A stretch of DNA of 59,195 bases from Nitrospiraceae bacterium (GTDB lineage Bacteria > Nitrospirota > Thermodesulfovibrionia > UBA6902), in NCBI GenBank assembly GCA_003599505.1, contig QZKO01000031.1:1-59195 (forward strand). Reading direction: 5' to 3'. The position numbers and the translations under genes are program-made. The notes below the pieces were generated by a model that ran no database searches, was not told the origin of the DNA, and worked only from the letters and a program-made list of their open reading frames with translations. How positions within the stretch are numbered: the first letter of the stretch is position 1; each line of letters opens with the position of its first letter. Shown piece by piece: positions 28,940 through 34,510 of the stretch.

Positions 28940-31753
28940 TCAGATGAAACGGTTTCTGATCATCCTTCTCACGTAAAACTTCCTCACTTCTTCTGCCAGC
29001 AGCAGCCCTGTTCCAAACGGGACCAGTACCAGCCAGACTTTCAGTTCCAGAGACCCGGTCCCGAAGATCATGTTGCCCAGGGGATGATAGATGATAAAGG
29101 CTGAGAGTATCAACTCAATAATTATCCCGTATAAGATAAGCCTGTTTGAGAAGAATCCAAGACTGAACACGGATTCATGGAACGAGCGGCAGGCAAACAC
29201 ATTCCCTATCTGTGAAACGATAATCCCGGCAAGACACGCTGTTGTGGCCTGCATATAAAGCAGATGGTCCTGGGGAAGCGTCGCTCCCCACTGCCATCCG
29301 CCGGATTTCAGCACATAGAAAAACCCGAATAGCCCCGCTGCCGCTTCAATCGGGCCGAGGAAAAAATACGCGCGCCCCAGTATCCTTGAATTCAGCAGTT
29401 TTTCGTCAGGGCTTCTCGGCGGCTGCTTCATAACTTCCTTTGCCGGTTTTTCAGCGCCGAGCGCAAGCGCCGGAAACATGTCCGTTCCGAGGTCCACGGC
29501 AAGTATCTGCATAATGGTAAGAGGCAGCGGGATGCTGAAAACAACATACGCGATGTAAGGGACAATCTCCGGTATGTTTGACGCGAATATGTAACTGATG
29601 AATTTCCTGATATTCTCGAATATGCCCCTGCCCTCTTCTATCGCATTTACAATAGATGCAAAATTGTCATCAAGCAAAATTATGTCCGCAGCCTCTCTTG
29701 CCACGTCCGTTCCGGTCATGCCCATCGCTACGCCGATGTTCGCCTTTTTAAGCGCGGGGGCGTCGTTGACCCCGTCGCCCGTCACCGCTACTCTTTCTCC
29801 TTCGTCTTCGAGGACCGATACTACCCTCATTTTATGAACGGGCGTCATCCGCGCAAAGATAATTTCAGATGACAGGAGTTTTTCACGCAGCGCGCTGTCA
29901 GGCATGATGTCCATCTCATGCCCCTCTATCACCACGGGCTCATTGTTAATAAGGCCGATCTGCCTTGCTATCGCGATTGCTGTTCTGCTTGCATCGCCTG
30001 TAATCATGATGACTTTGATGCCGGCATCGTGACATTTTTTCATTGCATCAGGGACTTCCGGTCTTGGAGGGTCTTCAAGTCCCATGAGGCCGGCGAAGAC
30101 GAGGTCGGATTCAATGTCTGTGAAATCCGACAATTGTAGGGGCAATTCATGAATTGCCCCTACAGGTTTATACGCGAACGCTATCACCCTGAGCCCTGCG
30201 TCCATCATTGAATGGTAAGCCTGCATAATGGAATTTTTGTTATCTTCAGTTATCTGCTGCAGGGGCGATTCATGAATCGCCCCTACCTTGTCGCTCACAA
30301 GAATTCCGCTGCAGAGCGGTAGAACGGTTTCCAGAGCGCCTTTGGTGAAAGAAACATATTGAAAGGGTTCGAGGGGCCGAGGGGTCAAGGGGTCAAGGGC
30401 AGAAAGCATCTGTTCACTTGAACCCTTGAACCCCTGAACCCCTGACCCCTTGTAAACAACCGTCATCCTTTTCCTGTCCGAATCAAACGGTATCTCGGCA
30501 ATACGCTCAGCTTTTATATCACCGAGCGCCTCTCTTGCCGCTTTCAAAATAGCAGCGTCAGTCGGGTCGCCCTTGTAAGCGCCGTTATCGCAGGTCGCGT
30601 TGTTGCAAAAGTAAGCGGTTTGCATGAGCATGTGTGTGGCCGGGACGGGTTTAAAACCCGACCCTACGTCATCTCTGCCCCCTCGCCCCTTGCCCCTTGC
30701 CCCTTGCCCCTCTAACGTCCATACCTTCTCGACCTCCATCTTATTCTGCGTCAACGTGCCGGTCTTGTCCGTGCATATGACGGTAACTGATCCGAGCGTC
30801 TCTACTGATGTGAGTGTCTTTATCAATGCCTTTTTCTTTGCCATCCTCTGGCTCCCCATCGCGAGGGAAAGGGTTACCGTAGGCAAAAGCCCTTCAGGGA
30901 CATTGGCTATAATGATCCCGACCGCGAAAAGAAAATTGTGCCAGAAGCTTCTCCCGATAAAAAATCCCAGGGCAAAGAAGAATATCCCGGTTGTTATTGC
31001 GATAACCGCGACTATCTTGGTTACCCTGACAATCTCTTTCTGAAGGGGGCTTAATCTTTCCTGTACTCCTCCCGTAAGATGCGCGATCTTGCCGAACTCC
31101 GTCGACATGCCGGTGGCGTACGCCACAGCCCTGCCGAGGCCGCTGACGACAAGTGTGCCCGCAAAGACGATATTCGGACTGTCAAAATAATTTCCGTTAA
31201 ATGCCTCAGGTCCGCGCAGTCTTGCGTCCGATTCACCTGTGAGAGGCGCATTGTTGACCATCAGGCGGTTTGATTCTATAAGACGCGAATCCGCGGGCAC
31301 CTTGTCACCCTCGCTCAAAAGTATTATGTCGCCCGGAACGACTTTTTCCGAACGGACCTCTTTTACAACGCCTTCCCTTATGACTTTTACGTTGAACGGA
31401 AGAAGTTTTTTCAGTTCCTCCACAGCCTTTTCCGCCCGGTATTCCTGAATAAATGTGAAAACAGCATTAATAAATATGACTACCGTTATAGCTATGCCGA
31501 GGGAAAGCAGCCCCTCTCCCGGATGGAAATATTCGGACAGAAAACAAAGGGCGACCGCCGCCCAGAGAAGGACGGCAAGGAAATGCGTAAACTGGGCCAG
31601 AAATTTTTTGTATAGCGGGACCTTCCTGATTTCCTTTATCTCGTTCAGCCCGTATTCATGAAGCCTTTTGACAGCCTCTGTTGCGGATAGCCCGTTAACG
31701 GATGTAAGAAGACTTTTCAGCGCCTCGTCTTTAGAAAGAGTTTGGATGTTCAT
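28940..31753 (-). CDS. P-type cation-transporting ATPase with in-frame repeat insertions
   Basis: A 937-residue P2-type ATPase (Ca2+-ATPase/PMR1-like). It has the N-terminal cation-ATPase domain, TGES in the actuator domain, the phosphorylation site CDKTGTLTQNKM, MITGDAS and TGDGVNDAPAL in the P domain, and about ten membrane helices. PEGL in the fourth helix fits a calcium or similar divalent cation. Unusually, the nucleotide-binding region contains four insertions made of repeat DNA: about residues 346-372, 434-464, 490-499 and 531-540. The last two spell VGAIHESPLQ and VGAIHELPLQ. All keep the frame, so the protein may still fold with enlarged loops. The neighbouring universal stress protein suggests a stress role. 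Confidence 0.9.
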   Translation of the reverse strand: MNIQTLSKDEALKSLLTSVNGLSATEAVKRLHEYGLNEIKEIRKVPLYKKFLAQFTHFLAVLLWAAVALCFLSEYFHPGEGLLSLGIAITVVIFINAVFTFIQEYRAEKAVEELKKLLPFNVKVIREGVVKEVRSEKVVPGDIILLSEGDKVPADSRLIESNRLMVNNAPLTGESDARLRGPEAFNGNYFDSPNIVFAGTLVVSGLGRAVAYATGMSTEFGKIAHLTGGVQERLSPLQKEIVRVTKIVAVIAITTGIFFFALGFFIGRSFWHNFLFAVGIIIANVPEGLLPTVTLSLAMGSQRMAKKKALIKTLTSVETLGSVTVICTDKTGTLTQNKMEVEKVWTLEGQGARGKGRGGRDDVGSGFKPVPATHMLMQTAYFCNNATCDNGAYKGDPTDAAILKAAREALGDIKAERIAEIPFDSDRKRMTVVYKGSGVQGFKGSSEQMLSALDPLTPRPLEPFQYVSFTKGALETVLPLCSGILVSDKVGAIHESPLQQITEDNKNSIMQAYHSMMDAGLRVIAFAYKPVGAIHELPLQLSDFTDIESDLVFAGLMGLEDPPRPEVPDAMKKCHDAGIKVIMITGDASRTAIAIARQIGLINNEPVVIEGHEMDIMPDSALREKLLSSEIIFARMTPVHKMRVVSVLEDEGERVAVTGDGVNDAPALKKANIGVAMGMTGTDVAREAADIILLDDNFASIVNAIEEGRGIFENIRKFISYIFASNIPEIVPYIAYVVFSIPLPLTIMQILAVDLGTDMFPALALGAEKPAKEVMKQPPRSPDEKLLNSRILGRAYFFLGPIEAAAGLFGFFYVLKSGGWQWGATLPQDHLLYMQATTACLAGIIVSQIGNVFACRSFHESVFSLGFFSNRLILYGIIIELILSAFIIYHPLGNMIFGTGSLELKVWLVLVPFGTGLLLAEEVRKFYVRRMIRNRFI
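30135..30164. repeat. Perfect GTAGGGGC palindrome inside the ATPase gene
   Basis: A perfect 30-base palindrome with 15-base arms (TGTAGGGGCAATTCA and its complement). On the coding strand it encodes VGAIHELPLQ at residues 531-540 of the ATPase. Confidence 0.85.
30261..30284. repeat. Second GTAGGGGC palindrome inside the ATPase gene
   Basis: A perfect 24-base palindrome (arms AGGGGCGATTCA and complement), extending imperfectly on both sides. It encodes VGAIHESPLQ at residues 490-499 of the ATPase in the same frame as its sister 100 bases away. Confidence 0.85.
30370..30453. repeat. Inverted heptamer tract (GGGGTCA / TGACCCC) inside the ATPase gene
   Basis: GGGGTCAAGGGGTCAAGGG words on the left face CCCTTGAACCCCTGAACCCCTGACCCC words on the right across about 25 bases. 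The RNA could form a long hairpin. It encodes about residues 434-464 of the ATPase, a segment absent from normal relatives as I know the family. Confidence 0.7.
30640..30716. repeat. Imperfect palindrome plus CCCCTTG heptamer array inside the ATPase gene
   Basis: GGGACGGGTTT and AAACCCGACCC (30642-30664) form an imperfect palindrome. It is followed by an array of CCCCTTG heptamers (about 30683-30712). Together they encode a Gly/Arg-rich loop near residues 346-372, between the phosphorylation motif and the normal N domain. Confidence 0.7.
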
Positions 31754-31755
31754 AA

Positions 31756-31834
31756 TTAGCTAATAGCTATAAGCAATAAGCTGTAAGCTGTTGGCCTTAA
31801 GCTTACAGCTTATAGCTCACAGCTTATAGCTGTC
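31756..31834. repeat. AGCTATAAGCTG-type short-word repeat
   Basis: Words of the type AGCTATAAGCAATAAGCTGTAAGCTG face TTAAGCTTACAGCTTATAGC, so the tract folds back on itself. It fills the gap between the universal stress gene and the ATPase gene and runs into the coding end of the former, whose last codons (CAG CTA TAA) come from the repeat. Confidence 0.7.
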
Positions 31835-34106: not shown

Positions 34107-34439
34107 ATGGAATTCATTCAACGCAGAGCTTTCGAAAGAGTCCCGGTAAATATCAGGGCCAGATTCTATTCTTATAATACAGACTTTTCAGGGACCATCA
34201 CGAATCTTTCAGAAAACGGGATGTTCATCAGTATGAAGAAAATGATGTTCCCTCTTGATTCAAAGATAGAAATAATCATCCCTCATGAAAAAAAGCTCCT
34301 GAAAGTGCCTGTCAGGGTCATCAGGATGACAAAATCAGGAAATGTCTTTAACGGTTTAGGCGTGGAATTACTGGTCATTCACCGGGAATATCTTGAATTC
34401 ATTAACAGCCTGAAATGTGAAGCAAATGTTAGCTGTTAG
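34107..34439 (+). CDS. PilZ domain protein
   Basis: A 110-residue PilZ protein. It starts with QRRAFERVPVNIRARF, which carries the RxxxR motif, and has TNLSENGMFIS as the second cyclic di-GMP-binding motif. It is in the same direction as the preceding PilZ gene and shows only moderate similarity to it, so it is an old duplicate or an independent member. Its last codons (AAT GTT AGC TGT TAG) are repeat-like words and its stop joins a GTAGGGGC-type palindrome at 34440, so its end may have been set by the repeat. Confidence 0.82.
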   Translation: MEFIQRRAFERVPVNIRARFYSYNTDFSGTITNLSENGMFISMKKMMFPLDSKIEIIIPHEKKLLKVPVRVIRMTKSGNVFNGLGVELLVIHREYLEFINSLKCEANVSC

Positions 34440-34510
34440 TAGGGGCGGGTTTTAAACCAGCCCTTGCCTCTTACCTCTTGCCCCACTTGCCTTTTGCCTT
34501 TTGCCCCTTG
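34437..34510. repeat. GTAGGGGC-type palindrome and CTTGCC heptamer tract
   Basis: TAGGGGCGGGTTTTAAACCAGCCCTT is an imperfect palindrome of the family found in the ATPase gene. It is followed by CTTGCC/CTTTTGCC words to about 34510. The block lies directly before cooC and holds no gene. Confidence 0.65.

Follow-up and report, generated by a model that had tools for sequence, protein, structure and literature searches.

In-frame REP palindromes and unrelated short repeat arrays in four loops of a P-type ATPase from a groundwater Nitrospirota bacterium

The stretch of DNA analysed here, referred to below as the window, comprises 59,195 nucleotides of contig QZKO01000031.1 from a Nitrospiraceae bacterium, and it carries a gene for a P-type ATPase with repeat elements inside its coding sequence (Table 1). 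The locus L089 (JACRLN010000033.1, Nitrospirae bacterium NC_groundwater_1882) matches part of G008:C23 without any difference, and G008 shares its genus with the window, which places the host among the Nitrospirota. The nearest solved relatives of the encoded protein are Na,K-ATPase alpha chains (E ~1e-166), and its top NCBIfam model is that of type IIC, with a score of 639.6 bits that lies below the naming cut-off of 946. The reading frame is unbroken over all 937 codons. Across 42 ATPase orthologues there is essentially no variation in the DKTGT and TGDGVND motifs, and comparison of the gene with those of congeners gives dN values of 0.16–0.22 and dS values of 1.7–2.8 (dN/dS ~0.06–0.10). Thus, purifying selection acts on the gene, and from these sequence comparisons it is almost certainly translated. 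A decayed or untranslated gene, the latter named in the initial annotation as a refuting outcome, is ruled out by the dN/dS values together with the conserved catalytic motifs.

Table 1. Features in and beside the ATPase gene, in window coordinates.
Feature	Position	Strand	Remarks
P-type ATPase gene	28940..31753	-	937 aa; host of the inserts; closest to Na,K/H,K (IIC) alpha subunits
Site 4: GTAG...CTAC double-foot REP, core AATTCATGAATT	30135..30164		perfect palindrome; encodes VGAIHELPLQ after AFAYKP
Site 3: second REP copy, GCAG/CTAC variant, core GATTCATGAATC	30259..30286		near-perfect; encodes VGAIHESPLQ
Site 2: octamer tract, inverted arms (AAGGGGTC / CTTGAACC)	30363..30452		within beta hairpin before FTKGALE
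Site 1a: decayed REP, different core (GGGTTTTAAACCC)	30638..30667		encodes ~DDVGSGFKPVP
Site 1b: heptamer array, CCCCTTG x4.7	30679..30711		period 7
AGCTNNN heptamer tract, inverted arms	31758..31831		noncoding; directly upstream of the ATPase start codon

The initial annotation described four in-frame elements within the nucleotide-binding part of the ATPase. The frame and the placement, in four N-domain loops, both hold, as does the number of sites, but the elements number five, the decayed GTAGGGTCGGGTTTTAAACCCG... palindrome of site 1a having a core of its own. Both palindromes that had been reported at sites 3 and 4 are present, and so is the combination of a palindrome with a CCCCTTG array at site 1, although only the second part of the latter (site 1b) is heptameric. 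The tract of site 2 had been read as an inverted heptamer tract. Its inverted arms are there, whereas its unit, in the test for heptameric STRR-type repeats, is 8 nt long, as against 7 nt at site 1b. Among the genes of the window, inverted repeats this strong occur only in the ATPase, and the remaining period-7 and period-8 arrays of the window are intergenic. A further GTAGGGGCGGGTTTTAAACC palindrome, which resembles the site 1 element, lies outside the ATPase at 34439–34468. The predicted model of the ATPase is weak overall (mean pLDDT 65, pTM 0.41) and confident in the N domain (pLDDT ~80–90); in this model the inserts fall in low-confidence stretches (residues 350–369, 438–463 and 488–492) and at ~531–540, between strands and helices of the N domain.

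What kind of element are the palindromes of sites 3 and 4? The word GTAGGGGCAATTCATGAATTGCCCCTAC is a perfect 28-nt palindrome and fits the pattern of 20–40 nt with GT[AG]G and C[TC]AC ends; the site 3 copy departs from it in its GCAG end. By these features the ATPase palindromes are classed as GTAG-type double-foot REPs, the type tied to TnpA-REP (RAYT) subclass 2.4. A search of the window with up to three mismatches returned two matches, against none in 100 dinucleotide shuffles, and the same tolerance gave 31 places in the whole 2.64-Mb genome (G000), where a reversed control pattern gave none. The phase of the copies accounts for the near-identical peptides that had been noticed at the two sites. 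At offset 1 the palindrome starts with TAG, at offset 2 it contains TGA, and at offset 0 it is open and reads VGAIHELPL(x) from either strand, so the likeness of VGAIHESPLQ and VGAIHELPLQ is forced by the single stop-free phase. When the 33 places found in sequence stretches of G000 were classified, 15 lay well inside ORFs of at least 250 aa, every one of them in the open phase. The hosts of in-frame copies, named by reading their sequences and not by family search, include AspRS, LeuRS, PrmC, cobalamin enzymes, an ArsA-like ATPase and an RND-type protein. Beyond this genome, the exact 28-nt palindrome occurs in at least about ten phyla; among the matches listed are Nostoc, Pseudanabaena, Brocadia, Scalindua, Acidobacteria, Omnitrophota, Zixibacteria, Spirochaetota, Balneola and others.

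The genome that carries the window also encodes a 197-aa transposase (L048, 1351–1941, forward strand), a cognate enzyme located only via the palindrome itself: a palindrome of the same core lies in frame after NHVH, and two more flank the ORF, 25 nt upstream and 37 nt downstream (L230), which makes the locus a resident REPtron. Its motifs MPNHVHG, VWQKNYYEH and YIINNP fit the set NH[IFV]H, WQ and YIxNNP of subclass 2.4 (PMC6006769). It scores above the cut-off of Pfam Y1_Tnp (31.6 against 23 bits) and below that of its best NCBIfam match, REP_Tyr_transpos (67.5 against 80 bits). Within the class, 71 of 229 genomes encode a homologue. Readable HUH ORFs were available at 68 loci, 65 from the class and three (L149, L156 and L191) from other phyla; at 42 of these, as in L048, the ORF contains a palindrome that scores above threshold and sits between HUH and Tyr. 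Several of the loci with the exact palindrome, among the matches listed, have an in-frame copy in a small transposase just after MPNHVHGI. Where both an in-ORF and a flanking palindrome are present, their cores agree at 15 of 19 loci, as against 3.6 on shuffling (maximum 10 in 5000). Copy numbers in the genomes follow the same pattern: core C reaches its highest count in G220 (18 copies), and for core B the top genome is G007, with 11 copies, each of the two having a transposase of the core in question. In G000 a stricter pattern gave 28 copies of core A, which is abundant there. In each of five genomes a core was found just once, within the transposase (core E in G188, G199 and G201, core C in G196, core B in G189). 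The transposase residues just after the palindrome vary with the core, as judged by reading and not by statistics. A PF01797 search of relatives was also made, and the other Y1 transposases that it returned all lacked an adjacent GTAGGG...CCCTAC palindrome.

How are the same loops occupied in other species? ATPase orthologues were drawn from 41 and then 230 genomes, and inverted repeats scoring at least 10 were assigned to site 1 (after MEVEKVW), site 2 (after RKRMT), site 3 (after the strand following KGALE), site 4 (after AFAYK) or elsewhere in the gene. Of the 53 such repeats in 42 orthologues from the class, 36 lie at the four N-domain loops, a count of inverted repeats to which gapped heptamer arrays would add. 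The other 17, or 0.40 per gene, are near the 0.30 obtained in dinucleotide shuffles. The contents of the loops vary by species and comprise GTAG palindromes with a range of cores, hairpins of the C6...G6 type, inverted heptamer arrays built on several words and a ATTGCGAG...CTCGCAAT element. The first two sites also hold inserts in the paralogous ATPases L018 and L022. Alignment with relatives lacking repeats, a comparison proposed at the outset, brought out short, repeat-free loops in L017 and, at site 2, in L015, L016, L208, L219, L224 and L225; the site 3 insert adds 8 aa over most relatives. The initial annotation had left the choice between tolerant loops and a selected function. Since the families of repeats are not the same from one species to the next and some orthologues have no repeats, loop tolerance is favoured, and the inserts yielded no positive support for a selected function.

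Two aminoacyl-tRNA synthetases, which were picked for carrying a copy and give no measure of how common filled loops are, have surface loops of the same character. In both AspRS and LeuRS, the loop that holds a REP in G000 carries heptamer-like arrays or REPs in congeners (L300–L329), the REPs being those in AspRS of G005 and in LeuRS of G008. The LeuRS loop is short and plain in more distant relatives. The AspRS REP takes the place of a repeat-filled loop and is not a clean 30-nt addition.

We propose that GTAG REPs cognate to TnpA-REP, together with unrelated arrays, landed in four permissive, peripheral loops of the N domain and that selection filtered out the rest, a reading that we hold to be quite likely. 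The REPs would be non-autonomous hairpins cognate to a TnpA-REP (RAYT subclass 2.4 / group 4) HUH transposase, and single-strand transposition by this enzyme is the most likely route by which they are brought in. The octamer and heptamer arrays are not REPs, a point that counts against this reading, and a separate process would make the tandem arrays. Insertion is probably widespread; selection would then remove the copies that shift the frame, add a stop or hit the fold, and the survivors would be those in phase and in loops. Four sites would be filled because the domain offers four permissive loops, and relatives would have filled the same four independently. We infer that the resident transposase mobilised the ATPase copies, and the inserts are presumably near neutral. 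Two further observations speak against it, namely that the 33 listed copies of G000 showed no target duplication and that insert lengths depart from a clean 30 nt. Against the transposase as the source stands G008, a genome of the same genus as that of the window, which has the most copies of the palindrome (56), yet no close transposase was found in it. The transposase may have been lost, or the assembly may have a gap.

A more far-reaching proposal is that such loops are repeated landing pads, with short mobile hairpins and tandem arrays in this lineage rewriting one and the same surface loop time after time, in many proteins, essential ones among them, and with the resident repeats mainly setting the loop sequence; the ATPase N domain would be a hot spot and may carry a selected RNA hairpin. 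We regard this broader version as unlikely. Could the repeats instead have formed in place, by slippage and template switching that converge on hairpins with no transposase involved? The octamer and heptamer arrays, often with inverted arms, do fill the same loops, and the lack of target duplication is in favour of such a process, but slippage could account for the arrays only: the exact palindrome stands at many loci of G000 and in phylum after phylum, and transposase loci carry it, which makes local formation distinctly improbable as a general origin. Slightly less probable still is selection of the N-domain hairpins as mRNA or DNA structure (for example, for translational pausing in N-domain folding, or for gene regulation) with position kept and sequence free, since its two favourable points, the recurrence of inverted repeats of differing sequence at four loops in many species and the retention of a perfect 28-nt site 4 palindrome by L001 and L222 between flanks only ~75% identical, are met by orthologues with repeat-free loops, by the same elements in the species-variable loops of AspRS and LeuRS, and by direct heptamer arrays that lack arms altogether. 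L001 and L222 share the site 3 palindrome as well, and acquisition of sites 3 and 4 as one segment is unsupported, the identity of the flanks not being raised.

REPs in frame have been described before. Di Nocera et al. (2013) reported GTAG REPs in frame in many genes, including those of tRNA synthetases, and argued for loops and linkers as their positions (PMC3733652). Intragenic GTAG and CGTC REPs occasionally number two per gene, and two Xanthomonas species have similar recB sites (PMC3733652). Quentin et al. (2018) described double-foot GT[AG]G...C[TC]AC REPs of TnpA-REP subclass 2.4 in frame in the transposase, between HUH and Tyr (PMC6006769). The suggestion that words of this type had not been known in frame is therefore not sustained. 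The elements analysed here share with those of subclass 2.4 the GTAG foot with a complementary CTAC at the far end, the spread over many phyla, the positions flanking and in frame within the transposase, and the motifs NHVH, WQ and YIxNNP (PMC6006769); they differ in being in frame also in the ATPase and other Nitrospirota host genes and in that some genomes yielded a given core solely from within the transposase. With the intragenic REPs of Di Nocera et al. they have in common an in-frame position in known proteins, tRNA synthetases among them, whereas they are set apart by numbering five, at four sites within a single gene, and by the variety of repeats that occupy the same loops in many species (PMC3733652). 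RPE-4 and RPE-6 of Rickettsia have a CGTC tag and RPE-1 is longer (PMC3733652). The palindrome of the window, GTAG-tagged and 28 nt long, has neither that tag nor a long unit of the RPE-1 type, and the analogy with RPE that had been drawn thus applies to the effect, in-frame palindromes in protein genes, and not to identity. Nostoc reportedly has small dispersed repeats of 21–27 nt, often beside heptameric tandem arrays (Elhai et al. 2008). The likeness to these is by description only, although Nostoc does have exact copies of the 28-nt palindrome.

The ATPase of this groundwater Nitrospirota bacterium offers a striking example of how proteins tolerate a genomic parasite of a known kind. REPs that lie in frame in genes, and within subclass 2.4 transposases, have been published before. 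What appears new is that the same loops are filled in parallel, and in the open-access literature we found no report of the loops of one protein filled in parallel by unrelated repeats in dozens of species. In effect, nature has carried out an insertion experiment on a P-type ATPase, in which dozens of species reveal four loops that accept foreign peptides and the parts of the fold that refuse them. Likewise, a short peptide common to many proteins is linked to one transposase family. The cores seen only within transposases in five genomes suggest that the copy belongs to the transposase locus, from which it could seed new REP families.

Finally, several further features were seen in and around these genes. 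In comparison with L001, the last third of the ATPase gene (residues ~780–860) is of another type in L009, L014, L200 and L222, with 52–58% DNA identity as against ~75% elsewhere, a pattern that suggests mosaic recombination. L200 and L222, which belong to one genus, are 79–90% identical in DNA but only 70–77% over the N domain and the stretch that follows, as though the part rich in repeats had been swapped. No clear Shine-Dalgarno sequence was seen in the AGCTNNN tract just 5' of the ATPase start, and L002, L003 and L014 apparently have repeats at the same place before the start codon. In Gracilimonas, the transposase locus L156 (7178–7750, with its flanks) has three palindromes whose arms are lengthened by differing local sequence to as much as 50 bp of perfect pairing, and these extended arms may show how the palindromes are made.
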